38,000 nt of DNA from a virus. The stretch spans positions 1 to 38,000 of the IMG/VR virus record IMGVR_UViG_3300035099_000676, one strand, 5' to 3'. Shown here piece by piece: positions 4,822 through 35,007 of the stretch. The stretch's first letter is position 1; every line of letters begins with the position of its first letter. The notes under the pieces were generated by a model, which was not told the DNA's origin, ran no database searches, and was given only the letters and a program-made list of their open reading frames with translations. Made by a program: the position numbers and the translations under genes.

Positions 4822-5826
4822 TCAGGCTGCGAAGCCGTTCAGTCTCCGACGCGGCGGCCTACCAGTGCTGCCGAATTCTCCCATTGGGGAGCGGATTTCC
4901 CGTCGGAACTGCCGCTGCAAGTCCGCCGGCGTGCGGTTCAGCAGGTCGGGTGAGATAATCCCGCGCTTCTTCTCCTCGTCGGTTGCGAGACGCTCTACAA
5001 ACGGCGTCAGCACATGTACACAGCGCGGGTGGAAAGGCGGGCCGCCGTTGATCGCGCTGATCGGCGGGTACACGGGGTGCGGCTCGTCACCGATGTTGAC
5101 GATGACGTTCTCGTAGTAGAGGCAGAAGTCTCCCGCGTTGTGAGCCGAGACCTGGGCGAGGGTGATGTTGTGCTCGCGCAGCCGGTTGATGGTGCCCTGG
5201 GTCATGGCCTCGCGCGTGGTCGTCCGCGCCACCATCTCCGTGTAGCGGTCCAGGTCCCACTTGCGGCCGAGGCGATCCGTGAAGAACGGCCGTCCCTTCT
5301 CAATCAGCCGCTCCTGGATGGCCTTGCTGACATCCAGTCTCGTCTTGCCCTCGACGATCCCCTTCGCGACCTCCTCCATGCCGACCCGGCGGAAGACGTC
5401 ATCAGCCCTTCGTCCGATCTGTGCGATCGCGAAGTCGGCCGTCCGCAGCAGCTCCCCGGTCGCCGCTTCCGCCGCCTCGCGATGCACCTGAGCGAAAACG
5501 TCAGACTGCGGGCGCCCGAGGTTGATGCCGGCGCGCCGGATGTTGCGAATCCCGTCGTCGGCGAATTCCATGCCGAGCCGATACGAGGCCGGCATGTTCA
5601 TCTGCGCCCAGGCCGCGGTCTCATCGCCCAGATTGCTCAGCACGACGTTGTACTGCCGCAGGTGGGCAAGGGCGTACCGGCGCTGCGCGAGAGTGGCGGA
5701 GGCGCTGCTGAGTACTTCCAGCGCGTCGGCCATCCCCTTCCGATAGACGGCCGCGAGGGAATTCAATGGCCCCTCGAACGCCCGCCGGAACTCCTCCACC
5801 TTGGCGCGGCTGATGAGCCTGGGCAT
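4822..5826 (-). CDS. Phage head morphogenesis protein, MuF/SPP1 gp7 type (minor capsid)
   Basis: A 334-residue protein placed right after the portal gene, as expected for MuF-family minor head proteins. These are internal capsid proteins bound to the portal in a few copies. The C-terminal third has the family hallmark: an ARTTTREAM helix, then a segment ending in PPFHPRCVHVLTPFV (Cys/His, around residues 268-282). The N-terminal two thirds are mostly helical. ATG 5826 is preceded by GGGGTGAG. No toxin domain follows the MuF region; the tail of ~50 residues is basic and low in complexity. Confidence 0.8.
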   Translation of the reverse strand: MPRLISRAKVEEFRRAFEGPLNSLAAVYRKGMADALEVLSSASATLAQRRYALAHLRQYNVVLSNLGDETAAWAQMNMPASYRLGMEFADDGIRNIRRAGINLGRPQSDVFAQVHREAAEAATGELLRTADFAIAQIGRRADDVFRRVGMEEVAKGIVEGKTRLDVSKAIQERLIEKGRPFFTDRLGRKWDLDRYTEMVARTTTREAMTQGTINRLREHNITLAQVSAHNAGDFCLYYENVIVNIGDEPHPVYPPISAINGGPPFHPRCVHVLTPFVERLATDEEKKRGIISPDLLNRTPADLQRQFRREIRSPMGEFGSTGRPPRRRLNGFAA

Positions 5827-6098: not shown

Positions 6099-7580
6099 TC
6101 AAATCTGCGCTCCTTCCGCGTTCTCCTCGCCGACGTCGCGCCGCGCGGTCGAGCCACGCCGCCCAGCCGCTCCGGTCAGCGCCACCGCCTGGCCGGTCTC
6201 TTCGGCGATCCGCGCCATCTCCGCCTCGACCGCGTCCGGCCCGTCGAGCCTGCGCACGGACGATTCGATGCTGGTGTTGCCGGCGGCCAGACGCTGCGCC
6301 TCCATCTGCACCATCTCCATCATGTCCTCGGGCAGACCATCCGCCCAGTTGATGACGGGCGCGCGCGGCTCATATCCCGCGCCGCCGTGGATGGCCTCGA
6401 GCTGCTGCGCGCACAGCAGCGCCGCTTTGAGCGCACGGTCGTAGTACAGCCGCTTGCGGTTCACCTTGGCTAGGGTGCGCAGCAGCCGCAGCCGCAGCGC
6501 CCGACCCGACTCGGCCACGCCGTATTTGTCCAACCCGAAGGCCGAGGGCGCGGTCTCGCTCATCAGGAAGATCATCTCCATCAGCCGATCAACCTCGGAG
6601 AAGGCCGCGGTCAGATGGGCGTCCCAGGTGATGTACGACGGCGGCTGCTCGCCGGCGCCCAGTTGAATGGCCTCCATGCGGTCGAACCGCACCTTCCCGT
6701 CCTCGTCCACGAAGCTCGGCGGCAGCACGATCTTCGGGGCGACGTGCTTCTGCAGCACCTCGTCAATCTGCGATATGCGATCATTGAGCGCCTCGAAAAG
6801 CGACTCCAGCCCCTCGTAGTCGCTGATCCCCCAGAAGCGCGAGCCGTAGCGGAAGTTGGGCGCGTGAAAGATCGGGATGTGGTCGAGGCCGGTCTCCTCC
6901 TCTTCGGGCAGGTCCTGGTAGGCTTCGAGAGTATTGAGGGGAATCTGCTGGAGCGCCTTGCCGCCAATGCTGATGGTGGCGGCCTGGCTGCCGGACACGG
7001 TGAGGGTGGAGATGCTGCCCAGGTCGAAGAGCTGGTGACGGATGACGCCTGGCTCGTGCACCTCTGCTCGCAGGTAGGCCCGCTTTGTGTCCTGCGGATC
7101 ACGTTTCACCCAGGCGAGGGTGACGCGGACGACCCTGCGCACATCGTCGTCATCCAGTTCGGGGAAGTAGATGCTGGCCGGCACCTCCTCGATGATCGCC
7201 TCGGGTTGGTCGGCCTGCGGAGTGCGCTTCCCCCAGCGCACCTTGTAGACCGCGTCTCCCCGGAACGAGTTGCTGAGCGCGGATTCGTAGTTCGCGGTAT
7301 GCAAGTTGTTGCCGGCGACGATGCGGTCGAGGGCCTCCTGCACCTGCTCGTCGCCATCGGGAGCGAGAAAGTCCGGCTGCTCGCCGAACAGGAGGTCAGC
7401 CGAAAGGCGGGAGATCACGCCCGCCATGTTGGCCGCGATGTATCGCCGCAGCTGGTAGCGCCCGGGCATCCCGGCGTACAAGTCCTTGTGCCGGCCCAGG
7501 AACAACTTCTCGTAGCGCGCGTAGGCCTCGACGCGCTGCCGATGCTCAGCAGGCGGATATGTCTTGAAGTCGATCGCCAT
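6099..7580 (-). CDS. Portal protein (SPP1 gp6-like)
   Basis: A 493-residue portal. It forms the dodecameric ring at the packaging vertex, where the terminase docks. Recognisable features are the early conserved region (ANMAGVISRLSADLLFGEQP), the segment HIPIFHAPNFRYGSRFWGISDYEG that precedes LFEALNDRISQIDEVL, and the late helical part (ESGRALRLRLLRTLAKVNRKR), matching SPP1-type portals in order and length. Of two adjacent ATGs (7583, 7580) the second has the better spacing from GGAGG. The gene is preceded by a promoter, a structured leader and a terminator. The C-terminal tail is low-complexity. Confidence 0.88.
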   Translation of the reverse strand: MAIDFKTYPPAEHRQRVEAYARYEKLFLGRHKDLYAGMPGRYQLRRYIAANMAGVISRLSADLLFGEQPDFLAPDGDEQVQEALDRIVAGNNLHTANYESALSNSFRGDAVYKVRWGKRTPQADQPEAIIEEVPASIYFPELDDDDVRRVVRVTLAWVKRDPQDTKRAYLRAEVHEPGVIRHQLFDLGSISTLTVSGSQAATISIGGKALQQIPLNTLEAYQDLPEEEETGLDHIPIFHAPNFRYGSRFWGISDYEGLESLFEALNDRISQIDEVLQKHVAPKIVLPPSFVDEDGKVRFDRMEAIQLGAGEQPPSYITWDAHLTAAFSEVDRLMEMIFLMSETAPSAFGLDKYGVAESGRALRLRLLRTLAKVNRKRLYYDRALKAALLCAQQLEAIHGGAGYEPRAPVINWADGLPEDMMEMVQMEAQRLAAGNTSIESSVRRLDGPDAVEAEMARIAEETGQAVALTGAAGRRGSTARRDVGEENAEGAQI

Positions 7581-7595
7581 CATGCCCTCCGGCCA

Positions 7596-7637
7596 AAGAA
7601 AAAGACGGCCCGCCCCGATCACGTCGGGACGCGGGCC
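7596..7637 (-). terminator. Rho-independent terminator/attenuator before portal
   Basis: On the minus strand GGCCCGC-GT-CCCGA (7637-7624) folds on TCGGG-GCGGGCC (7618-7607) around a CGTGA loop, a nearly perfect 12-bp stem. CTTTTTCTTT (7604-7596) follows directly. The portal start lies 16 bases further on. Confidence 0.85.
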
Positions 7638-7771: not shown

Positions 7772-7800
7772 ATTATAACCACCTGCCCTCTGCCCGTCAA
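7772..7800 (-). promoter_or_regulatory. Sigma70-like promoter for portal unit
   Basis: On the minus strand TTGACG (7800-7795), exactly 17 bases, then a perfect TATAAT (7777-7772). This is the strongest promoter I can see in the window. The -35 box lies within the 3' end of the preceding small gene. Confidence 0.85.
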
Positions 7801-8042
7801 CGTCCGCCCCGCCCTGAGCTTGTCGAAGAGCCCTCGTCTCGCGGAAGCGGCGGCGCGTCGCGGTCGAGCCGATAACTGGGCTTGCGGTCCATGACCTCCA
7901 CGCGCTGGGGCACGCCGTCGCTGTACGTCACCTCGAACGTCACCTTTCCATAGCCGCCCAATTGCTGACCCTCAAACGCGACGATCTGGGTCAGCCGCTG
8001 CCAGTGCCACGTCTCGCGGGAGGATTCGCGCGCGTCGCCCAC
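7797..8042 (-). CDS. Small hypothetical protein downstream of terminase
   Basis: An 81-residue protein starting with GTG at 8042, one base after the stop of the terminase nuclease-half gene, with GAGG upstream, so translation is probably coupled. The core (WHWQRLTQIVAFEGQQLGGY, then VTFEVTYSDGVPQRVEV) reads as beta-rich and could be a small head or connector protein, but no family is recognised. The last ~25 residues include translation of a dispersed repeat (7811-7830), so the C-terminus may have been altered by that insertion. Confidence 0.6.
   Translation of the reverse strand: MGDARESSRETWHWQRLTQIVAFEGQQLGGYGKVTFEVTYSDGVPQRVEVMDRKPSYRLDRDAPPLPRDEGSSTSSGRGGR
7811..7830. repeat. Dispersed repeat, family 1 (copy 2)
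   Basis: GCCCTGAGCTTGTCGAAGAG, a member of the family also at 6076, 15131 and 26060. It lies in the 3' end of the 7797-8042 gene, beside the portal promoter. Confidence 0.65.
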
Positions 8043-8043
8043 A

Positions 8044-8928
8044 TCACCATCCCTCGGGCCGCTGCGTCAGCCCCCGGGCGGTCGGGCGCTTCCGCACCTG
8101 CCACGCGATGCCGATCGCCATCACCCGGTCGTCGTGCTTGCCCTCAGCCGCCTCCTGCGACCCGGAGTCGGTGGTCACGAAAGTGAAGCACTCGTCCACC
8201 AGGTCCGCCGACATCATCCGCAGCGCGCCGGAGGCGATCGCCGCCGCCAAGTCGTCAACCAGGATGGGCTTCGTCGCCTGATCCGTGGGCCACCCCAGCA
8301 CAGGCGCCGACCGGCCCATGTGGTCGTAGCGGACGTGCGTGTAGAGCCGCGGGTAGCGGCAGACGTTGCGCAGCGTGTTCAGTGTCGAGTGCCCGTGGTT
8401 GTTGCGCTCCACCGCCACCCACGCCCAGTTGTACCACTTGCCCAGGGCGGCCAGCAAGTGTCCGAACCGCTCCGGCGCGATTCGCCCGTGCAGCTCGGCT
8501 GCCTGCGCCCCGCTCTCCTTGTCGAGCACGACTGCGGCCGACGCGTCCCCGCCAGCCAGTCCTTCGCCCACGTCCGCTCCGATGACGTACTGGCGACCCT
8601 CCTCCGGTTTCGCCCACACCACCAGGCGCGCGGGCGCGATCGGCAGCGCCTCCCCGCGCATGCCGGTCAGGGCGGTTACGCTCACCGCCGCCGGCGCCGC
8701 GGCGATCCGCGCTTGGGCCGCCCGCAGCGCCTCGGTGTCGAAGCAGCAGCGCCCGCTGGCCAGGAAGCAAGTGACGTCGTCCTCGGGGTACTGCTCAGCG
8801 AAGTGCGCGCCCAAGTCGCGCCGTTTCTGCCGCCGCCACTTGATCTGGCCTAAGGTCAGACCCCAGCGGCGAATCAGGGCGATCTCTTCGGTTGTGAGCG
8901 GTGTCACTTCCACGCCATCACCTGGCAC
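8044..8928 (-). CDS. terL: Terminase large subunit, C-terminal nuclease half (split gene)
   Basis: A 294-residue protein corresponding to the nuclease half of TerL, which cuts DNA at the start and end of packaging. After a linker (TTEEIALIRRWGLTLGQIKW, WRRQKRRDLG, YPEDDVTCFLASG) comes an RNase H-like nuclease with the expected acidic residues: D119 in VIGADVGEG, E174 in AVERNNHG, and D266/D267 in KHDDRVMAIGIAW. It lacks the ATPase domain, which is encoded by a separate gene at 10291-11049. A membrane pentapeptide gene lies between. GTG 8928 is the first start after that gene's stop and has only a weak ribosome-binding site. All key nuclease residues are intact, so the half looks functional. 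Confidence 0.85.
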   Translation of the reverse strand: MPGDGVEVTPLTTEEIALIRRWGLTLGQIKWRRQKRRDLGAHFAEQYPEDDVTCFLASGRCCFDTEALRAAQARIAAAPAAVSVTALTGMRGEALPIAPARLVVWAKPEEGRQYVIGADVGEGLAGGDASAAVVLDKESGAQAAELHGRIAPERFGHLLAALGKWYNWAWVAVERNNHGHSTLNTLRNVCRYPRLYTHVRYDHMGRSAPVLGWPTDQATKPILVDDLAAAIASGALRMMSADLVDECFTFVTTDSGSQEAAEGKHDDRVMAIGIAWQVRKRPTARGLTQRPEGW

Positions 8929-8965
8929 GGCTGGTCGCGCCCGTGCCCCAGACGCGTCCTGCAGT

Positions 8966-10180
8966 TCATCGCTTGAACCGCCGGTTCAGCGCCAGGATGA
9001 ACAAGGCAATCAGCGGCGGCCCGACCACCCCCTCCGCCACAGACAGGTAATGCCCCGCCGGATACACTGGCTGCAGTGGTCTGTCACCGCGGAGCAAGAA
9101 GCACATGACGGAGTACCAGAAGCGCGACCAGAAGCCCTCCATGGACAGCGATGCCGCCGAAGAAGGGCTGGGCTGGAGAGCGAAGGCCGGAATGCAGGTG
9201 AAGGCTAACGCAAAAGCGAGAACCATGCCCACGATCCACGCGCCCGCCCGGACGTAGTCCTCGCCGTACCCGCTGATCCATCGGTAGAACGCAATCGCAG
9301 ACAGGTAGCGCCTGTACGTGGCTCGTAGCCAACCCTTACACGGCTCAAGCCGCCGCATTTCCATCTCGCCGAAATGAAAGTCGCCGGCGGTGATGGGATC
9401 GCGCCGCTCCTCGTAGTTGTGCTTCAACTGCCGGTAAAGGTTACCGATCAGGGCGTAATCCTTCTCTTCGCCCTCTTTTTCGGACGTCAATTCATCCCGG
9501 ACCGCAAAGCGACCACCAGAACGCCTGGCCCACTCAACAGCCGTGAAGTCCACCTGCCGCACATCGGCGCCAAGGAATCGCGTCCGGCCAAGGAAGGCAT
9601 GTTGGAATAGGACTTTCTCCGACTGATGAAAGCGAGCCCACCTGAAATCGGCATCCGCTTCGCGGGAGAACACCCAATTATCTCGGTATCCGGCGAACAG
9701 CGCCGCGCCCTCGAACCTCGCCACGCTGAAGCTCGCCACGCTCTGGAACGTCGCTTGAGAGAACTGCGCCGCGCCCTGGAACGTCGCTGCGTAGAAGTTC
9801 GCCTCGCCCTGGAAGGTCGCGAAAGAGAAGTACGCCCCGCCCTGGAAGGTCGCCGCGTAGAAGTTCGCCTCGCCCTGGAACGTCGAATTGGTGAAGCGCG
9901 CCGCGCCCTGGAACGTCGCCCCCCGAAACCAGACCGGCCCGTCGAAAGCCCTGTTGCCGAAATCCGCGCCACCCGGAAATACAAAGCCGGTGAAGTCGTA
10001 GTCCTTGCGAGCCAGCATGGCCCGGATCTCGTGCTGGAAAGCTGCGGCGTCCTTGTCGGGCTTGTCGGAATGGCAGATGCACAATCCTTGCTCGTCATAC
10101 GGCTCCCGCCCGCAGCGGGTGCCGTCGTGCATCTCCACGGGGCACGTGGCGGCAGATTGCTTGGCCTCAGGCTCAGCCAT
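8966..10180 (-). CDS. Pentapeptide-repeat membrane protein inserted within terL
   Basis: A 404-residue protein with three zones. Residues ~14-45 carry a Cys/His cluster (CPVEMHDGTRCGREP, then LCICH) that may bind zinc. Residues ~65-175 are pentapeptide repeats of the ATFQG-A-F type, predicting a right-handed quadrilateral beta-helix. The C-terminal ~120 residues have a strong membrane segment (AGAWIVGMVLAFALAFTCIP), a semi-hydrophobic loop (FWYSVMCFLLRG) and a last helix (VVGPPLIALFILALNRRFKR), resembling two-helix ion-channel-like tails seen on some pentapeptide proteins but without a GYG filter. The start has an excellent site, GGGAGGTG, seven bases upstream. Its place between the two terminase halves is unusual. 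A membrane effector or superinfection/defence role is conjecture. Confidence 0.75.
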   Translation of the reverse strand: MAEPEAKQSAATCPVEMHDGTRCGREPYDEQGLCICHSDKPDKDAAAFQHEIRAMLARKDYDFTGFVFPGGADFGNRAFDGPVWFRGATFQGAARFTNSTFQGEANFYAATFQGGAYFSFATFQGEANFYAATFQGAAQFSQATFQSVASFSVARFEGAALFAGYRDNWVFSREADADFRWARFHQSEKVLFQHAFLGRTRFLGADVRQVDFTAVEWARRSGGRFAVRDELTSEKEGEEKDYALIGNLYRQLKHNYEERRDPITAGDFHFGEMEMRRLEPCKGWLRATYRRYLSAIAFYRWISGYGEDYVRAGAWIVGMVLAFALAFTCIPAFALQPSPSSAASLSMEGFWSRFWYSVMCFLLRGDRPLQPVYPAGHYLSVAEGVVGPPLIALFILALNRRFKR

Positions 10181-10290
10181 CGCTTTACACCTCCCCCAGT
10201 AGTGGCAGACGCTTTCGCTGGCTGGTCCTCAAGCCCCTGTATCTCATCTACCCAGTCGGCCGCAGCGGACGTCTTCAGGGGATCGTTGTC

Positions 10291-11049
10291 TCACACCCTG
10301 ACGGGAACTCCGGCGGATCTCAGTTGCTTGCTCCACGCCGCAATCTCCTCTGGCGTCGGCGGGATGGTGTATTCCGCATCCTCCCACCAGACGTAGAATT
10401 GCGGCGTGAATCGGTTCTCGCGCGCTTTCGCCGCCACCCACAAATCATGGAAGTAGTTGCCCACGCCGTTCGCCGTGGACTCGAGCACCACGCGGCCGTC
10501 GGCCGGCACCGCCTCCAGCAGGCCTACCAGCGACTCCTCCGGGTGCGTCCAGCGCGACACCTCGGAGCAGTGCAGGTTGTTGATCGTCAGGCCATGCCCG
10601 AACCGCGTGCTGCCGGCGGTCCCCACGAAGAAGGATGAATTCAACGCCTCCCACACCAGTTCCCGCCGGGTGTCGTATTTCGGTGTGCCGACCTTCAGCT
10701 TGACCACCGCCGGCAGCCGCTCCCAGAACAACTTCACGATCCCGAAGATCTTCTGAGTGCTCTCCAGGTCGTGGGCGATCAGCGCCGACACCGTGTTGGG
10801 CCGCAGCAGCGTGTCGGCGAAGAACATGGCGCTGATGAGCGTGGTGAACCCCAACTGCCGCGGCTTGAGGATGATGTCCCACGCGGTGCGGTGCTCCCAG
10901 TAGTCCCGCTGCGCCGCGTTGAAGTGCAGCGGGATGACGCGGCGATCCTTGGTGCGAATCCACAGGTAACGCTCGATCCAGCCCCGGGGATCGTCGCGCT
11001 CCTCAAGGATCTCCCTGATCTCGTCTCTCAGCAGGCTGGAGCAGCTCAT
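10291..11049 (-). CDS. terL: Terminase large subunit, N-terminal ATPase half (split gene)
   Basis: About 252 residues with the packaging-motor ATPase domain: AAQRDYWEHRTAWDIILKPR leading into the Walker A-like KPRQLGFTT (residues ~62-70), a Walker B-like stretch ending LHCSEVSRW, and the coupling-region motif VVLESTANGVGNYF. The frame stops after YVWWEDAEYTIPP plus ~20 residues, just where a normal TerL would continue into the linker and nuclease domain. That missing half is encoded at 8044-8928. The start is uncertain: ATG 11049 is used, overlapping the TerS end by 47 bases, and no good ribosome-binding site is visible. Coupled translation from terS is likely. Confidence 0.83.
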   Translation of the reverse strand: MSCSSLLRDEIREILEERDDPRGWIERYLWIRTKDRRVIPLHFNAAQRDYWEHRTAWDIILKPRQLGFTTLISAMFFADTLLRPNTVSALIAHDLESTQKIFGIVKLFWERLPAVVKLKVGTPKYDTRRELVWEALNSSFFVGTAGSTRFGHGLTINNLHCSEVSRWTHPEESLVGLLEAVPADGRVVLESTANGVGNYFHDLWVAAKARENRFTPQFYVWWEDAEYTIPPTPEEIAAWSKQLRSAGVPVRV

Positions 11050-11554
11050 CAAGGAAGTCGAGGGCCGCGTTGGCCTGCTCATCCGTGAGCTGCGCGAGGC
11101 GACGCTCGATCTCAAGTCCACCAATCAGCACCTCCTCGGGCACGCGCTTGACCACGCCCAGGGACTGCAGCAACTTCACGCGATCCTCGAGCGTGGTGAG
11201 AATGATCCGCAGGAAGCGGCCGCGCGCGGGCGATCCTTTCGGCGCCTCCATCATCTCCGCCCACGCCTGGCGCGCCACGGCGTTGGTCTCCTCGATGATC
11301 TCGGCGGCAGCGTCGAGCACGGCGGATTCGAGTTTGCCGCTCTGCTTCAGTTTCTCGTGGACGCGCTTTCGAACCGTCGCCAGGTCGCGGTCCACGGTGC
11401 GTTTGCTGACGCCCACCACCTCGCCGATCTCGCGGATGGTGAGTTTGCGCACCAGGGAGAGCGTCCACACGCGGGCGCGGCGATCCTCCACCGCCCGCGT
11501 TAGTTCGCCCCGCGTGCGCCCTCTCGTCGGCCCCCGCTGCGCCTCACCAGGCAC
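11003..11554 (-). CDS. terS: Terminase small subunit-like DNA-binding protein
   Basis: A 183-residue protein beginning with GTG at 11554 (GAGGGG upstream). Residues ~35-65 form a helix-turn-helix, KLTIREIGEVVGVSKRTVDR, followed by a long helical region (KLKQSGKLESAVLDAAAEII onward) suited to oligomerisation. Position just before the terminase ATPase gene, size and HTH-plus-helices layout fit a small terminase subunit, which recognises the packaging site and regulates the large subunit. It could instead be a regulator with a sigma-like HTH, but synteny favours TerS. Confidence 0.7.
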   Translation of the reverse strand: MPGEAQRGPTRGRTRGELTRAVEDRRARVWTLSLVRKLTIREIGEVVGVSKRTVDRDLATVRKRVHEKLKQSGKLESAVLDAAAEIIEETNAVARQAWAEMMEAPKGSPARGRFLRIILTTLEDRVKLLQSLGVVKRVPEEVLIGGLEIERRLAQLTDEQANAALDFLDELLQPAERRDQGDP

Positions 11555-11565
11555 GGATCAGCCCC

Positions 11566-13062
11566 TCAAAATTGCGAAATCGCGCCATTTCGCGCCACTT
11601 GTACGCTCTCGTGAGCGTGGTCGGCGAAGGTTTTCCCCGTCTCCATGTGGCGCGCCTGGCCCCCGGTCATGGTCTGCCACCGCTCAATCGCGACATCGCA
11701 GTAGCCTGGAAGCAGCTCCATGGCGACACATCTGCGCCCGTTCTGCTCCGCGGCGATGATGGTCGTCCCCGAACCGGAGAAAGGCTCGTAGACCAGCCCG
11801 CCTTCTTCGGTCGTAAGTCGCATGAAGAACGCCGGCAGCGCCACCGGAAACATGGCGGGGTGCGCCAGGCTTTCCTGGTTGCGCCCAAAGTGCTGCACGT
11901 TGCCGGGCCGCGCAATTCCGCGGGCCACGAGCGCCTGATCGGGCACCGAGATATTCCCCGTGGCGGGGTTGTAACCGCCGCCCCCAGGGCGATACTGCGG
12001 CACCTGCTCACTGACATGCCCCACCGCGCGCGGGCGGAACTTGATGCGAAACCGCTTGGCGAAGTGGAAGACGTCCTCGTACATCTCCGCCAGGTTGAAG
12101 TCGGTCTCGGCCAGCCAGTCGCGGTTCAGGTCCACGACCTGTACCATCCAGTTGACGGCGTCCTGGCGCGCGAAGAAGTGGATCGGCTCGAAGTCGTTGC
12201 GCAGCCGCGGGTAGTGCTCTCCCGGTAATCCAGGCTTGACCCAGATCAACTGGTCAACATAGCGCCACCCCGCCTCGACCATGGCGATCACCGTGCGCAT
12301 CACGTAGAGGCTTCGCTGCCCGTCCTCGACATGCTCTTTGATGTTGACGAAGAACGAGCCGGCCTCGTCGAGCGCGCGCCAGACCTGCGCCGCCACGCGC
12401 AGGAACCAGGCGGGGTAATCGGCGGCCGGGATGCCGCCGTAGGTGGAGGCGCGCTGCATGGCGTAGGGCGGCGATGTGACGCAGCAACCGGCCTTCTCGC
12501 CGGCCATGGGGCGATCCACGTCGGCGGCAACGGTGCAGTCCCCGCACAGCAGCCGGTGCTCGCCCAGCAGCCAGAGGTCGCCCGGGCGGGTGACCGGCTC
12601 CGCCGGGGCCTCGCCCGGGCCGGGATCTTCCCCCTGCGCCTGGTGCTGCTCGGCCTCGATGCGCTCCAGCAGCGCCCGCACCTCATCCTCGCCCCAGCCT
12701 GTGGAATCCAGCGTGCCCGCCTCCATGCGCTCGCGCAACAGCACTGCCAGGGCCTGATCATCGTCCTCGGCCAGGCGCACCGACTCGTTGTCGTCGACGA
12801 GGAACGCGCCCGGATCGCTGCCGTCATAGACGTGCACCCCGATCTCGGCGCAGCCCAACTGCCGCGCCGCCTCGACCAGGGCGTGGCCGGCCAGGATCAT
12901 GCCGTCCGACTGGATCACCACTGGCTTCTGCTGCCCATGGCGGCTGAGGTTGGCGCGCAGCGCCGCAATCTGCGCCTCCGGGTGGCTGCGATAGTTGCGT
13001 GGATTCGCCGCCAGCCGCTCAATCGGCCACCGCGGCCAGGCCGCGGTTGTCTCGACGCTCAT
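11566..13062 (-). CDS. ParB-like domain fused to DNA methyltransferase (N4/N6)
   Basis: A 498-residue two-domain protein. Residues 1-100 are ParB/Spo0J-N-like (LAANPRNYRSHPEAQIAALR, then KPVVIQSDGMILAGHALVEA). From ~165 on is an amino-methyltransferase of beta-type order: catalytic TSPPY at 196-200 and the S-adenosylmethionine site EPFSGSGTT at 426-434. Such fusions are common in phages, usually without a cognate restriction enzyme, and may protect phage DNA or mark packaging sites. N4-cytosine and N6-adenine cannot be distinguished here. The start at 13062 has GGGGAGGG upstream. The frame continues to 13125, but that extension covers a terminator hairpin. Confidence 0.85.
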   Translation of the reverse strand: MSVETTAAWPRWPIERLAANPRNYRSHPEAQIAALRANLSRHGQQKPVVIQSDGMILAGHALVEAARQLGCAEIGVHVYDGSDPGAFLVDDNESVRLAEDDDQALAVLLRERMEAGTLDSTGWGEDEVRALLERIEAEQHQAQGEDPGPGEAPAEPVTRPGDLWLLGEHRLLCGDCTVAADVDRPMAGEKAGCCVTSPPYAMQRASTYGGIPAADYPAWFLRVAAQVWRALDEAGSFFVNIKEHVEDGQRSLYVMRTVIAMVEAGWRYVDQLIWVKPGLPGEHYPRLRNDFEPIHFFARQDAVNWMVQVVDLNRDWLAETDFNLAEMYEDVFHFAKRFRIKFRPRAVGHVSEQVPQYRPGGGGYNPATGNISVPDQALVARGIARPGNVQHFGRNQESLAHPAMFPVALPAFFMRLTTEEGGLVYEPFSGSGTTIIAAEQNGRRCVAMELLPGYCDVAIERWQTMTGGQARHMETGKTFADHAHESVQVARNGAISQF

Positions 13063-13084
13063 GATCCCTCCCCGGCGGCCGGCA

Positions 13085-13122
13085 AACAAAAAGCCGCCCA
13101 CGATCTCAACACCGCAGGCGGC
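13085..13122 (-). terminator. Rho-independent terminator before methylase-terminase unit
   Basis: On the minus strand GCCGCC (13122-13117) pairs with GGCGGC (13098-13093), followed by TTTTTGTTT (13092-13084). It sits between a promoter (13132-13160) and the ribosome-binding site of the methylase gene, the same order as at the portal and capsid units, but with almost no leader between promoter and stem. Confidence 0.65.
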
Positions 13123-13131
13123 CACGCTCCC

Positions 13132-21290: not shown

Positions 21291-21832
21291 CGGGGCCTCC
21301 TGTTCCGCGGCTCTATCTGTATTTTTCCATGCCGCTTCTTGACCGGCTTGATGGGGTGGGGGAGGGCCTTGCGCGTCCGCTCGCGATTCAGCGCCACCAG
21401 GGCGATGGCGCAGGCATCGAGGACGTGTTCGTTCTCGCTGTCAATCTTGAGCAGAAGCTTCACACAGCGCCCGACCTGCTCCTTGCCCGCGCGGCCTCGG
21501 CCGGTGATCGCCTTCTTGATCTCCTGCGGCTGGTAGTCAATCAGGCGAATGCCGAGCGACTGACAGACCGCCCGCACCAGCTCCTGTTTGGCCCGCTGCG
21601 CCATGCCAATGCTTCTGCGGCCCCACGTGCCCGGGCGCTCTGTTGCCACTACGGTGACAGCCTGCTCGCGGCAAATCTCGTGGGCCGCCCGCTGCAACTC
21701 AAAGGCGCTGCAGCGCGCAGGGAGCGCAATCGCCCGCTGCACCCGGATGCCCTGCCCGTCGTCGCTCAGCACGGCGATTCCGCCGGGACTGCCGAGGTCG
21801 ATCCCGCAGACTCGCAGAGCCTCTCTCATCAT
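21287..21832 (-). CDS. RuvC-like Holliday junction resolvase
   Basis: A 181-residue RNase H-fold nuclease. Active-site acidic positions fit RuvC: D12 in CGIDLGSPGG, E65 in VVATERPGTW, and D139 in NEHVLDACAIAL with H136. The TGRGRAGKEQV segment is typical of RuvC. The C-terminus is basic. In phages such resolvases process branched replication or recombination intermediates before packaging. The first ATG (21832) overlaps the HerA stop as ATGA. Confidence 0.82.
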   Translation of the reverse strand: MMREALRVCGIDLGSPGGIAVLSDDGQGIRVQRAIALPARCSAFELQRAAHEICREQAVTVVATERPGTWGRRSIGMAQRAKQELVRAVCQSLGIRLIDYQPQEIKKAITGRGRAGKEQVGRCVKLLLKIDSENEHVLDACAIALVALNRERTRKALPHPIKPVKKRHGKIQIEPRNRRPR

Positions 21833-23568
21833 GCTCCGTCCCCCATGAATAGCGTCTGCGATGCCCGCACGCCCTCGGACGTGACCTCCGCCAGACCGTT
21901 GCGCCGCAAGGTGCCCAAATAGGTGCCGAAGGTGCCGCCGCTAACGGTGAACCCTGTCCCCTCGGCTAGGTCCTCCCGACTCAGGGTCGCGGGATACGCC
22001 TCCACCAGTAACTCCAGCATTTTCCGCTCGCCGGCGCGCAGCGCGCCCCGCCAGACATCGAGCCGTTCCTCAAGCGTTGTCGGCGTAGGCGGCACATGGC
22101 CCGCGCGTTCAAGCCCGGCCTCAGTGATCTCTACCTCGCGGCCTTCCAGAGCGATATAACCGCCACGACGCAGGTCGCCGAGGTAAGTCCCGAACGTCCC
22201 CCCGCTCGGGGTGAAGCCGCTGAGTGTGCCGAGCTGACTGCGCGTCATGACCATCGGATGGTGCTGTGCCAGGGTGCGCAGCATTCGCAACGCGCCCGCG
22301 CGCAGATGATCGTCACCGTTGGCGGGCGGTGCCAACGGGGGCCCGGGTGCCCGGCGCGGCGCATTCTCAATGCGCTCGGACTTGGGTATTGGCGCGGCTC
22401 TGGTGGTGGCAGGCAACTCCGCGGGTAGTTCCGCTGGTAGTGGAGTCTGGGCGAGGGCGGCCGCCTTGCGCGCGATTTCCTCGCAACCGGCAGTTACCGT
22501 CTTCAGCGTGCGCATCGCATCCTTCAGCGGCGCCACCATTCGCCTCCGCTCTGCGGAAAGAGCGCGCTCCACTTCGCGTCGGATCGTGTCCTCGCTCGGG
22601 CGCTGCGCGCCGCGCCGGGTCTCAGCCAGCTCGCGCTCTAGCTCCCGCACGCGGCGCTGCAATCCGACGCGCTCTTGGATGTCTTCTTCTGCGGCCCGCG
22701 GCAAATCGGCCAGCTTAGCGAGCATCGCCTTGACGCGCTCCGGCGGTGGCGGAGGCCCTTGCGCTGCTCGAGCGCCCCGCGCGATCTCCGGGTGGTGCGT
22801 CTGGACTCCACCGACCTTGACCAGCGTCAACGACGTCGACATCGCGCGACCGATGCAGTAGAACTCGCCCGGATCGCGGGTCATGAGCAGATTGAGGACG
22901 CGCTTCTGTTCGGCGCCGCTGAGTCCCAGGGCCTCGACTGCCCGTTTCCGGTCGATGTCCAGGCTGGTCGGCCCGACCATGACATTGAAGCACTGCGCAG
23001 CCGCTTGCTTGTTGAGATTGGAGAGTCGCTGCGTTGCCAGGATAGCGCAGAACCCGCGCTTGCGCCCGCGCGTGCACAGGTCTGCCACCGCATCAGTGGA
23101 TTCGGAGTCTGCCTTTTCCGGGCAGTAAACATGCGCTTCATCTACCACGACGAGGGCCGGATGCCACAGCGGCCGGGGCGCATTGATCAGGGCCTCAAGG
23201 AAAACCCGCACAAAGTGGGGCCGTTCCCGGGCGCGCATCTCATACAGGTCGCACACCGCGCTGACGCCCAGCTCGAGCAGCCGGTGCGCCAGCATCTCGG
23301 CCAGCCGCGGCTCGGCCGCGATGTCCCCGCCCTTGCCCACCAGGACGTAATCAAACTTCTCGCGCAGGCTCGGAAACTCGCCCTCCGGATCGATCACGAT
23401 CTGCTGGATCGTCCCGTGGCTCTGCTCGAGGATGCGCCGGAGCGCCCAGGACTTGCCCCCGCCGCTGGTCGCCTGCAGCAGCAGGCGGGTCGGCAGCAGA
23501 GTTTCCAGGTCGACGTAGAATGGCTTGCCGCCGTCAATGGCGCGTCCCAGCTCGATGCGGGTCTTCAT
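21829..23568 (-). CDS. HerA/FtsK-type ATPase (DUF87) with duplicated C-terminal module
   Basis: A 579-residue protein. Walker A is ATSGGGKS (residues 33-40), Walker B is VVVDEAH (140-146), followed by TRGRKRGFCAILATQRLSNL, the HerA-type arginine/sensor segment. A coiled coil (~265-330) and a Pro-rich linker lead to two copies of a short winged-helix-like unit: SGFTPSGGTFGTYLGDLRRG and TGFTVSGGTFGTYLGTLRRN. HerA-like pumps translocate DNA or support end resection with nucleases. The neighbours are RuvC and a radical SAM repair-like enzyme. ATG 23568 overlaps the upstream stop (ATGA); the longer frame to 23814 is a shadow. Confidence 0.82.
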   Translation of the reverse strand: MKTRIELGRAIDGGKPFYVDLETLLPTRLLLQATSGGGKSWALRRILEQSHGTIQQIVIDPEGEFPSLREKFDYVLVGKGGDIAAEPRLAEMLAHRLLELGVSAVCDLYEMRARERPHFVRVFLEALINAPRPLWHPALVVVDEAHVYCPEKADSESTDAVADLCTRGRKRGFCAILATQRLSNLNKQAAAQCFNVMVGPTSLDIDRKRAVEALGLSGAEQKRVLNLLMTRDPGEFYCIGRAMSTSLTLVKVGGVQTHHPEIARGARAAQGPPPPPERVKAMLAKLADLPRAAEEDIQERVGLQRRVRELERELAETRRGAQRPSEDTIRREVERALSAERRRMVAPLKDAMRTLKTVTAGCEEIARKAAALAQTPLPAELPAELPATTRAAPIPKSERIENAPRRAPGPPLAPPANGDDHLRAGALRMLRTLAQHHPMVMTRSQLGTLSGFTPSGGTFGTYLGDLRRGGYIALEGREVEITEAGLERAGHVPPTPTTLEERLDVWRGALRAGERKMLELLVEAYPATLSREDLAEGTGFTVSGGTFGTYLGTLRRNGLAEVTSEGVRASQTLFMGDGA

Positions 23569-24560
23569 GCCGTGCAATTGCACCTCACGGGTGACGGCGT
23601 TCGGCCCGGCCAATCCGGGCCAAACACCATGCGCCATACCTCCGGCGTCTCTTTGCACAGCGCCCACGAATCCGTACAGCCAGCCAGGCGCTCCCGGATG
23701 TCGCGGTAGAGATGCACCCGCTCGTGCATGCCGAGTCGCCACGGATGATGGCCGAAGTCCGGCTCCATGCGCGCGACCCGCCGCGCTAGGGCGCGCTGCA
23801 CCGCGGAGCCGCAACTCATGAGTCTGTGTGTGGCATCAGTGAACCGCAGCGTCCCCAGGGTAATCCGCTCCCATCGCCGTGCGGCGACGTCCAGCAGCAT
23901 GCCGAGCGCGCCGATCGCTGTGCAGTCAACCAGCGGGTCTAGACGAAAACGAACGCGCCATCCTGCATCGAGCAACCTGACTGCCGCCGCCATTCGATCC
24001 GCCGCTCTCGGCGTGCGCAATGCGAGGGTGTGACTGCCCACGACTTCCTGCCCCAAGGAGAAGCTGAGAATCACCCGCGGAGTGGGCTGGGTCTGGAAGA
24101 GCACGGCGGGCGGGAGCGCCTTGGTGAGCAGCAGCAGCGTGTGCCGCCCTTGCTCCCGGAACATCTCAACCAGCCGCAGGCTCAACTCCGCCGAGATCGC
24201 CGGCGCGAATGAATCCGAAAGCTCGCCAGCGTTAACGACGACTCCGCCGAAACCGCTGCATTCGGGGCAGGCAGCGTGAGTGATGAGCTGCGTGTCGCGT
24301 GGGAAGTCCGGTATGCCTGCTCCGTCCGTCCCGGCGCCGGCGCACGCCGGGCACCTCGTCCGCTCCATCCAGCGTTCGACCTCGCGCTGCATGGCCGGCA
24401 AGTCGGCCTCGGTCAGGTCGCGCGGGCACCCTCGCCAGAAGACCCCCTGCAGGTAGCAGTAGGCGCATGCGTGCGGGCACTGGGCGATGCAGGGCAGACG
24501 CCAGAAACCTGGGCACACCACGCCTGGCTTGGACTCGAAGCGCCCGATCCTCCGCGTCAT
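23565..24560 (-). CDS. Spore photoproduct lyase-like radical SAM protein
   Basis: A 331-residue protein. The cluster-binding CPHACAYCYLQG gives C28-C32-C35 (CX3CX2C), and the following YCYLQ matches spore photoproduct lyase, the radical SAM enzyme that repairs the thymine dimer of UV-irradiated spore DNA. The late part (LGTLRFTDATHRLMSCGSAV, RLGMHERVHLYRDIRERLAG) fits the same family. Between ~80 and 120 it carries a DnaJ-like double CxxC zinc finger (CPACAGAG...CPECSGFG), which I do not expect in the family. It may repair or modify phage DNA. ATG 24560 follows AAGGA and is coupled to the upstream gene. Confidence 0.75.
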   Translation of the reverse strand: MTRRIGRFESKPGVVCPGFWRLPCIAQCPHACAYCYLQGVFWRGCPRDLTEADLPAMQREVERWMERTRCPACAGAGTDGAGIPDFPRDTQLITHAACPECSGFGGVVVNAGELSDSFAPAISAELSLRLVEMFREQGRHTLLLLTKALPPAVLFQTQPTPRVILSFSLGQEVVGSHTLALRTPRAADRMAAAVRLLDAGWRVRFRLDPLVDCTAIGALGMLLDVAARRWERITLGTLRFTDATHRLMSCGSAVQRALARRVARMEPDFGHHPWRLGMHERVHLYRDIRERLAGCTDSWALCKETPEVWRMVFGPDWPGRTPSPVRCNCTA

Positions 24561-30289: not shown

Positions 30290-30921
30290 CCGAGCCTCCC
30301 GGTATGCCAGTCCAAGTCGGCATCCGCGATCGCCGCGCCCAGCCGCTGGCGGATTAGCCAGTCCGCCACCTTGATCACCGAACCGCCCGCCTCGATGCCC
30401 AGGCACTCCTGGACGTCGTACGTGCGCGGTCGCAGGCGGCTCTTCGCGGCGACCGCCACCACCTTGCGGCCATGGTCGATTATTACGCCGATTGGCGCGA
30501 GTCGGCACAGGTGGGGTTTGACCGCATGGACCCCGCAAACGGCCTGGCCGTTCGCGCGCCCCAGCCACCGACATGCGCCGCCCGACTCTGCGGGAACGTA
30601 TAGGCCGCCGGGCCGCACCGCCGGCGGCGCGAGGCCATGCTGCCGCGCGTAGGCCGCGAGACGTTCGCCCTCGCCGCCCCACAGACGCTCGGGCGCGCGT
30701 CCGTGGCAGCAGTGCCCGCATCGCAGGCAGGCAAAGCGCACGGTATCGTCCAGTCCGACCGGGCGCAGACGGTGCCGGAACACAGCCTCCCATGCACGGC
30801 CGTAGGCCTCGCGGTGAATCGCCTCCGACAAGCCCTTGTCCGCGACCGTCCACCCGGCGGGCAGCCCTGCCGGTCCGGCGGACAGGTCATCAGTGACCGG
30901 GCGTCGCTGCATCTCGATCAC
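30286..30921 (-). CDS. CxxCxxCC (YkgJ/UPF0153-like) metal-binding protein
   Basis: A 211-residue protein. CLRCGHCCHG gives C65, C68, C71 and C72, the CxxCxxCC signature of YkgJ-type iron/zinc-chelating proteins. Further Cys occur in GGACRWL, AVCGVHAVKPHLCRLAP and VQECLG. The GTG at 30921 overlaps the SbcC stop as GTGA and has GGAGGTG five bases upstream. Function in phages is not known; co-translation with SbcCD hints at a DNA-metabolism link. Confidence 0.72.
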   Translation of the reverse strand: MIEMQRRPVTDDLSAGPAGLPAGWTVADKGLSEAIHREAYGRAWEAVFRHRLRPVGLDDTVRFACLRCGHCCHGRAPERLWGGEGERLAAYARQHGLAPPAVRPGGLYVPAESGGACRWLGRANGQAVCGVHAVKPHLCRLAPIGVIIDHGRKVVAVAAKSRLRPRTYDVQECLGIEAGGSVIKVADWLIRQRLGAAIADADLDWHTGRLG

Positions 30922-33332
30922 CGCAGCACCTCCATGCGGCTGCCGGCGACGTCCTTCGTCACCTCGATCCGGGCCGGGAAGAGGTCTTTCAGCTCCTCGA
31001 CGTGGGTGATGCACAGGACGCATGCGAAGTGCTGCGCGACACGGTCAAGGCACTCCACGAACAGCCGCCGGCCCTCTACGTCGAGCGGTGCGGCGGTCTC
31101 GTCCAACACCAGGAGTTCGCAGCTCGCGCCGGCCCTGGCAGCCAGCAGCCGGCTCAGGCCGATGCGCAATCCGAGGTCGACGCGCATGGCCTCGCCGCCG
31201 GAGAAGGTCTCGTATGGCCGCTCGCCGCGGTCATTGGCGACGATGATTGCGAGAGTCTCGCTCAGCGTCTTGGCCTGCGTCTCCCGCTGCGACCGCAGCG
31301 CAACGGTCATCCGGCCGTCGCTCAGCTCGCCCAGGACCTCGTTCGCCGCCGCTTCGAGGTCCGGCACGGCCTTATCAATCAGCAGCGCCGGAATACCGCT
31401 GCGGGAGAATGCGCCGGAGCGCGGATTGCCGAGAAGCTCCAGGAGTTGCAGCCGCTTCTGATGCTCCGCGATCTCTGCTTCGCGTGCCTGCGCGCGCTCT
31501 GCAGCTGCCAGGGCGGACTGAAAATGCGCCTGGTCGCGGCCCTGGCGGCCCTGCAGCTCCGCGATCTCCCGGTCATAGCGCTCGATGCCCGCTCGTGCGG
31601 TTTGAATGGCGGCCTCGACCTGGGCGAGCATCTTGTCGAAGCGTCGGGGGTCACCGACCTGCGCGGCCAGCTCTTTTTCCCGATCGCTCAGGCCGCGAGC
31701 ATCGGCTTCCCGCTGCGCCAGCGAGGCTTCGACCTCGGCCTTCTGGGCGGCTGCGACGTCAATCCCCCGCAACCGCTCCTGTAGGTCTGCGCGCTGCGAC
31801 GCCTGGCGCTTGGCCTTATCGTGCTCTGCCGAGGAATAGCCGAGGTTTGCCCGACGTTGCCCTACGGCTGCCAGTTCGACCTCAAGGCCTACCCCTGCCC
31901 CCGCCTGCTCCATCTCGGCCAAACGGGCGCGCTCCTGTGCCGCCACGTTGCCCTCTGCGGCGCGCAGGGATTCCATCTCGGCCTGTTTCTCGGCCCAGGG
32001 CATTGCTGCCTGAGCAGCTGTGAGGTCCGCGTACACGGCGCCGATGTGCGCCACGGCTTCGCGTGCCTGGGCGATCAGCGGGCATTTGTCTCGGATGGCG
32101 AAGAACGAAGGCCGGATCGCTTCGTCAAGCGGGTTCGCACAGGGTACTTGGTCGAGCACTTCCGCCTGCCCGGCGAGCCGCTCGTGCTGGTCGTCGAGCT
32201 GCGCGACCCGGTGGAGGTGAACCTCCCGGATGTGCGAGATCTCGTGTTCGAGGGTCGCGACCTTGTTGGCGTACTCCCGGCGCGCCGCGGCGATTGCGGC
32301 CTGTAATGCGCGATGCTCGGTTTCCCACTGCTGCTGGGCGGCCTGCATCCGCTCTCGGATGAGCTGCTCCTCATGGGCCAGCTCCTGATCCTGCTGCCGC
32401 AGCTTCTCAAGGCTGGCCACCACGTTCTCGGCTGCCGCGGCAACCTCGATCGTGCTCATGATCTGGGGCCGCTCGGCAATCGCAGTCTCGAGGCTCCGCA
32501 GCCGCCCGCGCAGTGATTCGGCCGCGGCCTCGGCCTCCTGCCGCCGACGCTGCACATCCTGGATCTGCTGCTGGAGCCCTTTGGCCGCCTCGCGCTCGGC
32601 GAGGATATGCTGCTTCGCCTCAGTGGCATCGCCGATCGCCTGTTGTTCTTCTAGCCGTTTGGCTTGGGCCGCGGCGATCGCCGCGGCTATCTCCCGCAGG
32701 GCCGCCTCGATCTCTGCGGCCAAGGCGGCCTCAGCGCGATCGGCCTCGATCTGGCGGTTGGTCTGCTCGATGCGCACTTGCAGTTCGCGCGCGGCCTGTC
32801 GCGCCGCTTCCGCCCGGCGCTCCCACGTCTCCAGGTCGAGGATCTCCCCGAGCACACGCTTGCGATCAGCGGGCCGCGCTTGGGAGAAGGCGGCAGCGTT
32901 GCCCTGGTTCGCGCAGGCGGTATGGACGAACAGGTCGTCCGTCATGTGGATGACCTGCTCGATGCGTTGCTGCGTCTCGTTGACCGTCTTGCCATCCAGG
33001 ACCACCGTTCCCGGGCCGTCCGGATTGGCGATCTGGAATGAGAGGGTCGTGCCCCCGCCGCCTTTTCGATTGCGCTGGCGGGAGACCAGGTAGTCGTCAT
33101 CGCCCAGGGCGAACTCGAACTCGACGCGCCCGACGTTCTCGCCCTCGGTGATCACGCTGTCCGCGCCCGCCCGGGCATAGCCCCACAGGGCGTAGCGCAT
33201 GGCGTCGATGATGCTGGATTTGCCCGCCCCGTTTGGCCCACTGAGAACCGCGAGGTTGATGCCGGAGAGATCGAGATCATGAGCGCCTCGATAACTCTGG
33301 AAATGCTCCAATCTCAACCGAATCGGCCTCAT
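30918..33332 (-). CDS. sbcC: SbcC/Rad50-type exonuclease ATPase subunit
   Basis: An 804-residue SMC-like protein. The N-terminal half-ATPase has Walker A SGPNGAGKSS (31-40) followed by the Q-loop region (YLVSRQRNRKGGGGTTLSF). Long coiled-coil arms flank a central Cys-containing turn (VPCANPLDEAIRPSF), equivalent to the Rad50 zinc-hook position but without a clear CxxC. The C-terminal half has the signature/Walker B segments RVDLGLRIGLSRLL and LLVLDETAAPLD. With SbcD it forms a nuclease that opens hairpins and resects DNA ends. ATG 33332 (AAGGAGG upstream) overlaps the SbcD stop as ATGA. Confidence 0.88.
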   Translation of the reverse strand: MRPIRLRLEHFQSYRGAHDLDLSGINLAVLSGPNGAGKSSIIDAMRYALWGYARAGADSVITEGENVGRVEFEFALGDDDYLVSRQRNRKGGGGTTLSFQIANPDGPGTVVLDGKTVNETQQRIEQVIHMTDDLFVHTACANQGNAAAFSQARPADRKRVLGEILDLETWERRAEAARQAARELQVRIEQTNRQIEADRAEAALAAEIEAALREIAAAIAAAQAKRLEEQQAIGDATEAKQHILAEREAAKGLQQQIQDVQRRRQEAEAAAESLRGRLRSLETAIAERPQIMSTIEVAAAAENVVASLEKLRQQDQELAHEEQLIRERMQAAQQQWETEHRALQAAIAAARREYANKVATLEHEISHIREVHLHRVAQLDDQHERLAGQAEVLDQVPCANPLDEAIRPSFFAIRDKCPLIAQAREAVAHIGAVYADLTAAQAAMPWAEKQAEMESLRAAEGNVAAQERARLAEMEQAGAGVGLEVELAAVGQRRANLGYSSAEHDKAKRQASQRADLQERLRGIDVAAAQKAEVEASLAQREADARGLSDREKELAAQVGDPRRFDKMLAQVEAAIQTARAGIERYDREIAELQGRQGRDQAHFQSALAAAERAQAREAEIAEHQKRLQLLELLGNPRSGAFSRSGIPALLIDKAVPDLEAAANEVLGELSDGRMTVALRSQRETQAKTLSETLAIIVANDRGERPYETFSGGEAMRVDLGLRIGLSRLLAARAGASCELLVLDETAAPLDVEGRRLFVECLDRVAQHFACVLCITHVEELKDLFPARIEVTKDVAGSRMEVLR

Positions 33333-34609: not shown

Positions 34610-35007
34610 TGCGCACCGCCTTCCGCGGGCTGGGGCGCGCCGAACCACGCGGGGCCGCTTACGTGCTTGCCGACGATCGCATCGGCCAAGGCGGTGAGTG
34701 ATGGATAGACGCGGCCATCGTGCTCGATGCCGTTCTCCACGACGACCGCCTCATACCGGACGCCCTTCCATTCGCGGGAGAATCGCGTCCCTATAGGAGG
34801 CAAGCGCCGGTGCCGCGGCGTCGCTCCGGTCCCGCTCCCCGCCGCCCCGCGGGCATGCCTGTCCTGCGTGCGCCGGTCATAGGCCTCGATGCATCGGTGG
34901 CAGAGCTTGTCGCTCCCGCGGAGCCACACCATCAGCCGGATGGTGCGGCCGCATTCCGTGCAGGTCTCGCGCTCGTGCTTTTGGAGGCTGCGGACCGATG
35001 CGTTCAT
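34606..35007 (-). CDS. DUF2924-like protein with N-terminal zinc ribbon
   Basis: A 133-residue protein. TCTECGRTIRLMVW and KLCHRCIEAY form a zinc ribbon near the start. The C-terminus, IGTRFSREWKGVRYEAVVVE...YPSLTALADAIVG and GPAWFGAPQ, is the phage-linked DUF2924-type region (REW.G...V, YPSLT..A..I, NGP..FG pattern). Coupled by ATGA overlaps with neighbours. Function unknown. Confidence 0.7.
   Translation of the reverse strand: MNASVRSLQKHERETCTECGRTIRLMVWLRGSDKLCHRCIEAYDRRTQDRHARGAAGSGTGATPRHRRLPPIGTRFSREWKGVRYEAVVVENGIEHDGRVYPSLTALADAIVGKHVSGPAWFGAPQPAEGGAQ

Follow-up and report, generated by a model that had tools for sequence, protein, structure and literature searches.

Within the 38,000-base stretch that we call the window (virus record IMGVR_UViG_3300035099_000676, positions 1 to 38,000), the large terminase subunit (TerL, gene terL) is encoded by two separate open reading frames (ORFs), one carrying the ATPase and the other the nuclease, and a pentapeptide-repeat gene lies between them. 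Five other contigs from the viral collection IMG/VR are split at the same place, with differing contents at the break, and the split forms are scattered among intact relatives. We consider the split to be real, shared, and, to judge from the sequences, probably functional. Our favored explanation, held with somewhat better than even confidence, is that HNH endonuclease genes free of introns have repeatedly split terL at this point, that the two chains still form a packaging motor, and that in the window the site now holds a cargo gene.

Packaging motors are powerful machines driven by ATP, and the transfer of force between their parts is a subject of current study. If such a motor is naturally cut ahead of its nuclease domain, it would reveal which of its links can do without a covalent bond, and a two-piece TerL would offer a ready two-part system for tests of force transmission. 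The case also suggests how breaks made by endonucleases may turn into lasting sites at which passenger genes can enter essential phage genes. A first-pass annotation of this DNA had noticed the split and proposed several origins for it; the observation is partly confirmed by our analysis, and the interpretation is partly supported.

A large terminase in two pieces

The elements of the interrupted gene are listed here, with the evidence for each in brackets; handles beginning with L denote loci from our scans of IMG/VR.

10291..11049, minus strand: TerL piece 1, the ATPase piece, start unsure, C-terminus QLRSAGVPVRV followed by the stop codon (phrog_2, 1.6e-16, and alignments)
10291..10383, minus strand: 30-residue C-terminal tail past the FYVWW strand, stop codon included (equal length in six split contigs)
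8966..10180, minus strand: inserted pentapeptide-repeat gene, 404 amino acids, with a weakly two-helix channel-like C-terminus (Pentapeptide_3, 6.2e-28; Ion_trans_2, 0.0071, below cut-off; hydropathy)
8914..10290, minus strand: interval between the TerL pieces, made up of 110 nucleotides, the pentapeptide gene, and 52 nucleotides (no RNA family or flanking repeats found)
8044..8913 (alternative start 8928), minus strand: TerL piece 2, pre-nuclease helices and RNase H-like nuclease (Terminase_6C, 1.1e-5; Shine-Dalgarno-like sequence; comparison with L009 and L026)
8848..8913, minus strand: N-terminal lead of piece 2 (VEVTPLTTEEIALIRRWGLTLG), the second helix of the interrupted linker (linker comparison and L019 model)

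The two domains do not occur together in one polypeptide of the window. The ATPase piece, which matches phrog_2 (terminase large subunit), carries KPRQLGFTT, LHCSE, and ESTANG as its ATPase A, B, and coupling motifs, in keeping with a gp17-like ATPase, while the nuclease piece exceeds the family cut-off for Pfam Terminase_6C and carries the conserved acids of an RNase H-like nuclease in GADVGEG, VERNN, and HDDRV. The catalytic-motif residues that are invariant in 29 intact relatives (alignment A7) are kept in the window pieces; in the numbering of the intact relative L019 these are E171 in LHCSE, D375 in GADVGEG, E430 in VERNN, and D522/D523 in HDDRV. Among the split contigs, too, the aligned pieces retain these residues. 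The claim that the two halves are separate genes with intact catalytic residues therefore stands.

A profile and a model built on the intact relatives, with the window left out, place both ORFs as parts of one large terminase of the T4 gp17 type. The profile matches T4 gp17 (3cpe, 3ezk) at 6.5e-44 in two stretches, one per domain. The top fold match is 3cpe (1.4e-25). Over the whole chain the TM-score to gp17 is low, at 0.36; the fit improves when domains are taken singly, with target-normalized TM values of 0.59 for the gp17 ATPase domain and 0.82 for a G20c nuclease. The ATPase and nuclease ORFs of the window are thus a T4 gp17-like TerL in two pieces, whereas T4 gp17 itself is one chain.

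The ends of the pieces differ in part from those first proposed. An ATPase piece at 10291-11049 was confirmed, but its start is unsure, since the frame opens at a TTG at 11124 and 11049 is one among several candidate starts, overlapping the preceding small-terminase-like ORF. For the nuclease piece, which had been given a start at 8928, GTG codons occur at both 8928 and 8913. A Shine-Dalgarno-like AGGTGAT precedes 8913 only, and this GTG aligns with the ATG starts of L009 and L026, so that the piece probably starts at 8913.

The first-pass annotation had read the similar stretches TIPPTPEEIA and VTPLTTEEIA, found at the two break points, as a sign of duplication. However, intact L007 carries both linker stretches in one chain (APITGEEAAALQAALATEEAALVRR; read as APITGEEAAALQAALATEEAALVRRYHL), as does intact L019 (PTAAEEAAWAAQL...LSQDELRLIRGHGL; PTAAEEAAW...LSQDELRLIR), and the repeated motif is therefore not the product of a duplication. 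By manual count the L019 linker has 54 residues, with W at position 17 and QL at positions 20-21 as in the window tail, and the window tail and its 22-residue lead come to 52 residues together. Given this agreement in length and in the W and QL positions, L019 can be taken as the one-chain counterpart of the split form. In all six split contigs the ATPase piece ends exactly 30 residues past the FYVWW strand, and tail plus lead amount to 52-54 residues (65 with the longest L053 start). The linker has 30-37 residues in seven intact relatives, those that our script delimited in full; it cut L019 and L006 too late.

We located the break on an AlphaFold model of intact L019 (29-sequence alignment, mean pLDDT 88). 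It maps to residues 256-269, a loop modeled with less certainty that connects helices 241-255 and 270-279; the first nuclease strand comes near residue 339. The break thus does not fall at the start of the nuclease fold: about 75 mostly helical residues separate it from the first nuclease strand and remain on the nuclease piece. By analogy with gp17, these residues may belong to ATPase subdomain II. With them on the nuclease piece, the model suggests that the two chains would have to fold together.

Relatives split at the same place

Seven scans of IMG/VR yielded the loci compared here. Four of the scans returned the best 80 of 589, 378, 590, and 581 confirmed loci, and our counts therefore describe the nearest relatives of the window rather than IMG/VR as a whole. 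The check for splits covered 247 loci, including the window and setting aside the loci of an HNH-protein scan (L184-L262) and two named phage loci. Both TerL halves are present in 237 of the 247 (142 distinct), and 13 distinct sequences were flagged as possibly split. Six of these are split at the window's place: the window, L008, L009, L026, L053, and L064. Restricting the comparison to contigs in which each half reaches 54% identity, and counting every contig once, gives a close group of 30 including the window, in which 6 are split at the shared place and 24 are unsplit there.

Three flagged sequences were dropped from the count. In L032 the stop was merely near the start of the matched stretch, and in L323 there was a gap between matches and no stop; both look like alignment effects. 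The terL of L003, one of the 24 unsplit contigs, is interrupted away from the shared break by a single in-frame stop. This TAG, at position 1704 of L003, lies in the C-terminal part, a GTG-started ORF resumes at 1746, and the stop is either a sequencing error or a recent nonsense mutation.

Four distant loci (no more than 40% identity) are split at a second, later place, beyond the stretch kept on the window's nuclease piece, and were counted apart. As in the window, their ATPase and nuclease ORFs are separate, with or without an intervening gene:

L171, 3443-5417: small ORF with an HETH motif between the TerL pieces
L177, 2665-5145: two ORFs between the TerL pieces, one weakly DNA-methylase-like
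L179, 4917-6566: ORF-free gap between the TerL pieces
L183, 4968-6390: nothing between the TerL pieces; the ORFs overlap

The contents of the shared break differ. A free-standing gene matching HNH_3 sits there in L008 (2.9e-8), L009 (2.9e-8), L026 (3.1e-9), and L053 (9.1e-13), in each case starting within the end of the ATPase gene and overlapping the start of the nuclease gene. No endonuclease gene is present at the break of L064, where the split has no insert and consists of a 4-nucleotide overlap, the stop TGA of one gene lying over the GTG of the next. Gene insertion, one of the origins first proposed, is supported by these differing inserts at one break, and the HNH genes bear out the expectation that related phages would show the same split with other inserts. 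Since L008 and L009 are close kin, the six split contigs represent five lineages. That the same break recurs in five related fragments suggests more than an accident, and the site looks like a reusable landing site.

This recurrence also bears on the suspicion that two contigs were wrongly joined at the insert. The pentapeptide insert itself is known from one contig only, yet the same break in five other contigs makes a joining error unlikely, and the order of methyltransferase, small-terminase-like gene, TerL, and portal matches that in L005. We judge an assembly error to be very improbable.

Outside IMG/VR, a DNA search of phage records gave no match. At the protein level, the ATPase half has matches in 303 phage records and the nuclease half in 308, none reaching 60% identity. 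Two of these records were inspected, Vibrio phage 252E42.2 and Aeromonas phage phiARM81mr, and in both the match lies within one gene as long as a terminase. The nuclease half of L183 matches two phage records and that of L064 two plasmid records. Among bacterial and archaeal genomes, 80 stretches fit a pattern and none was confirmed as a relative.

If the halves were joined by a self-splicing element, whether a group I or II intron or a split intein, the gene would be split in appearance only. Precedents for terL are in print, as in the Jug phages (PMC12363816), ICP1 (PMC10448857), and IBB_35 (PMC3322345). As in our contigs, terL is interrupted in these phages and endonuclease genes lie near or inside it, but there it is spliced or predicted to be spliced, whereas here we found no intron or intein. 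Specifically, Rfam at the gathering threshold revealed no intron in the window or in L008, L009, L026, L053, or L064, and a low-threshold scan of the insert region gave just two unrelated matches (E 3.9 and 9.5). No intein domain was found on the window's TerL pieces, which leave only a 30-residue tail and a 22-residue lead at the break. The gaps of the HNH-bearing contigs are filled by the HNH ORFs, the tails are 30 residues long, and L064 has no space for any splicing element. The halves do share a frame in five of the six split contigs (window, L008, L009, L026, and L053, not L064), as would suit an intein, but because the HNH cassettes are related this is not independent evidence and counts for little. 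We therefore see splicing, which the first-pass annotation had raised, as a highly unlikely account.

Interruption of terL by introns or an intein is already known, as is the splitting of other phage genes by intron-less endonuclease genes. In PMC2988022, nrdA of Aeromonas phage Aeh1 is split by mobE and gene 60 of T4 by mobA, gene 43 of Aeromonas phage 25 is also split, and activity of the two-chain form is shown for nrdA and gene 43. As in those cases, an essential phage gene is here divided, without splicing, between two chains that would be translated on their own, and in the HNH-bearing contigs the break is occupied by a free-standing endonuclease gene. Our contigs differ in that the target is TerL, the break is common to several lineages, L064 is free of any insert, and the insert in the window is not an endonuclease gene. 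L064 resembles phage 44RR in being split without an endonuclease, although 44RR has untranslated sequence at that place. Elsewhere, a terminase gene occurs in 35% of surveyed T5orf172 endonuclease neighborhoods (PMC10448857), a DNA polymerase B has a split intein and an HNH gene (PMC6892783), an RNA polymerase is in two parts (PMC6811365), and a DNA polymerase is in two genes with a small ORF between them (PMC10580990). Excerpts of PMC12210895, PMC6715854, PMC5587285, and PMC7260188 hold no case of such a split. A terL split without splicing, or by an intron-less endonuclease gene, was not found in the literature, which is weak evidence of absence given that subscription journals fell mostly outside the search.

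History of the break

We built trees of each TerL half from the 30 close contigs and seven outgroup rows, after 24 loci had been removed by hand as extra copies of included contigs; the split groups that we tested were defined by the trait and not taken from the tree. Split and intact forms are intermingled in both trees. The partner of L026 in both trees is intact L028 (support 100/100 for the N half and 99/97 for the C half). In the C half, L008/L009 join intact L012-L014 (100/98), and in the N half they fall with L012-L014 and L016/L034 (97/92). Both halves reject a single clade of all splits (p-AU 1.7e-78 and 2.6e-114), and they still do so when L026 is left out (3.9e-6 and 1.1e-5). By parsimony each tree requires four changes, and gains and losses cannot be told apart by this method.

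The free trees had hinted that the two halves of the window are of mosaic origin, in line with the recombinational swap proposed in the first-pass annotation. We withdrew this idea, since keeping the window in its N-half clade gave a better C-half tree and the nuclease half is compatible with the clade of the ATPase half (p-AU 0.606). The N half rejects a tree that joins the window to the L006 group (p-AU 0.00017), whereas the C half does not (0.111). Because a constrained C-half tree beat the free search, single unstarred placements are not to be leaned on.

Comparison of split contigs with their intact kin suggests local exchange around the break. The cores of L009 and intact L012 are 82% and 84% identical, and yet their linkers, 53 and 31 residues long, agree at only 12 of 31 positions, while the linker flanks of L009 and split L053 agree at 19 of 30 and 12 of 18 positions, on par with the cores of that pair (65-66%). 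Similarly, L026 and intact L028 are 74% and 72% identical in their cores and share 14 of 30 linker residues. The pattern fits, though it does not prove, local replacement of the linker along with the insert; homing in which flanks are co-converted, as set out in PMC2988022, would be expected to have this effect. From this exchange and their HNH_3 similarity we infer that the HNH genes may be of the homing type, cutting insert-free alleles and copying themselves into them.

Closely related L008 and L009 allow a view of selection on a split terL. Over 690 nucleotides of the ATPase piece they differ by 17 nucleotide changes and only one amino acid change (nonsynonymous divergence, dN, 0.002; synonymous divergence, dS, 0.10), which indicates constraint, and the nuclease piece has no changes. 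Their near-identity begins at the end of the ATPase piece and continues across the HNH gene, the nuclease piece, and the portal gene as far as the 5,363-base alignment reaches; upstream, 150-base steps show up to about 21% differing sites, which marks a recombination junction in the packaging genes. A search for a gene-conversion tract around the HNH gene found this upstream junction only.

These data help to weigh the idea that terL in its split form is decaying or has lost its function. Interruption of an essential gene by foreign DNA invites that suspicion, as does the lone stop elsewhere in the terL of L003, and the window record may be a fragment of a phage with a second TerL elsewhere. 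However, catalytic residues are kept in the split contigs, dS is well above dN between L008 and L009, and the second piece has its own Shine-Dalgarno-like sequence. The window contains a single nuclease half (one match), and its other terminase-labeled protein is HerA-like. Decay therefore seems improbable to us.

According to the reading we favor, homing-type HNH genes without introns would repeatedly enter one permissive loop between two linker helices ahead of the nuclease domain. Their entry would end the ATPase chain at the loop, and the nuclease chain would restart from its own start codon. The neighboring genes would then yield both chains, and with the break in a loop and the catalytic residues retained, we expect the two to fold together into a functional motor. 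In L064 the site would now be empty, with the gene still split through its stop/start overlap, and in the window a pentapeptide passenger would occupy a site that may once have held an HNH gene. The broader proposition, that this terminase works as a two-chain motor and that its break is a mobile, reusable site where HNH cassettes enter repeatedly, are lost leaving the split behind, or yield to a cargo gene, we hold at slightly less than even confidence.

Alternatively, fission may have come first. An ancestral terL with a long linker would have broken by an L064-like overlap, the gap would then have served as a neutral landing site for HNH genes and the pentapeptide gene alike, and the intact kin would have arisen by re-fusion or replacement. 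The insert-free split of L064 and the constant tail length in the six split contigs are both consistent with this order of events, and PMC2988022 describes the same ambiguity for split gene 43, with untranslated sequence replacing the endonuclease in phage 44RR. In contrast, given the scatter of the splits and the short linkers in the closest intact kin of L026 and of L008/L009, fission first needs several re-fusions or replacements. We regard it as rather unlikely.

Several observations weigh against repeated entry of HNH genes. Fission first would give much of the same picture, and intact L019 already has, in one chain, a linker near the split length (54 residues versus 52 in the window) with matching W and QL. 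The window itself has no HNH gene, and no HNH remnant was found beside its ATPase piece, where shuffles scored as well in 745 of 20,000 trials against L009 and 5,258 of 20,000 against L026; the pentapeptide gene, for its part, is found at the break of only one of the six split contigs. Within the trees, the N half does not recover a group of L008/L009 and L012-L014 alone, though it does not reject it either (p-AU 0.307), and the pairing of L064 with intact L058/L133 is seen in that half and not in the C half. The three changes between the HNH genes of L008 and L009 all alter amino acids, and because the near-identity of these contigs continues through the portal gene, their shared tract is not centered on the HNH gene. 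Finally, the HNH-protein scan gave 79 further loci (L184-L262), of which only two hold both TerL halves, and these are the L026 and L053 contigs again; the HNH family is therefore common and not tied to terL. Four of the 79 (L212, L222, L241, and L242) have a weak match to the nuclease half only.

The inserted gene and its surroundings

The pentapeptide ORF conforms to the first description of it as a 404-residue pentapeptide-repeat protein with membrane segments and a ribosome-binding site: it matches Pentapeptide_3, the stretch GGGGGAGGTG lies ahead of its ATG, and two hydrophobic stretches occur near residues 316-334 and 379-398, within the last 120 residues. The C-terminus weakly resembles Ion_trans_2, a two-helix ion channel family, at 16.7 bits against a cut-off of 22.5, in a region where the model is of low confidence; the single-sequence model is confident for about residues 61-160 only. 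Scanning IMG/VR with the protein gave three stretches that fit a pattern and no confirmed relative, no phage record matched it, and PADLOC and NCBIfam gave no match. Partial matches occur in 72 plasmid records, none covering 80%. No direct or inverted repeats were found around the insert.

Given that the gene lies between the TerL pieces and on the same strand, its membrane-type product could be imagined as a third part of the motor or as a regulator of it. Yet none of the five remaining split contigs has the gene at its break, and the database searches returned only the partial plasmid matches. Nothing suggests a role in packaging, and we find this idea extremely hard to credit. Most likely the pentapeptide gene is a passenger that arrived beside, or in place of, an endonuclease gene.

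The minus-strand order around the split is ParB-like/methyltransferase, small-terminase-like, ATPase, pentapeptide, nuclease, a small ORF, portal, and minor capsid. The flanking genes are as follows:

11566..13125, minus strand: ParB-like/DNA methyltransferase protein (N6_N4_Mtase, 1.1e-27; phrog_498 and ParB-like phrogs)
11003..11554, minus strand: small-terminase-like helix-turn-helix protein, overlapping TerL piece 1 (helix-turn-helix-type matches)
6099..7622, minus strand: portal protein (SPP1_portal, 7.6e-14)
4822..5826, minus strand: minor capsid protein (Phage_min_cap2, 3.9e-17)

An ORF resembling the small-terminase-like gene sits ahead of terL in L002-L006. The small ORF between TerL and portal (7797-8042, minus strand) encodes a peptide similar, by eye, to one that follows terL in L007 (1136-1513).

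A 661-residue protein at 21829-23814 (minus strand) bears the phrog_2666 label of terminase large subunit and has a weak Zot-family match. It partially matches three phage records, one of them annotated as terminase large subunit. We considered it as a second TerL and rejected it, as it is HerA-like by Pfam (DUF87). Elsewhere on the minus strand, at 30918-34648, an SbcC-like protein (30918-33446) adjoins a calcineurin-like phosphoesterase (33329-34648), forming an SbcCD-like pair.

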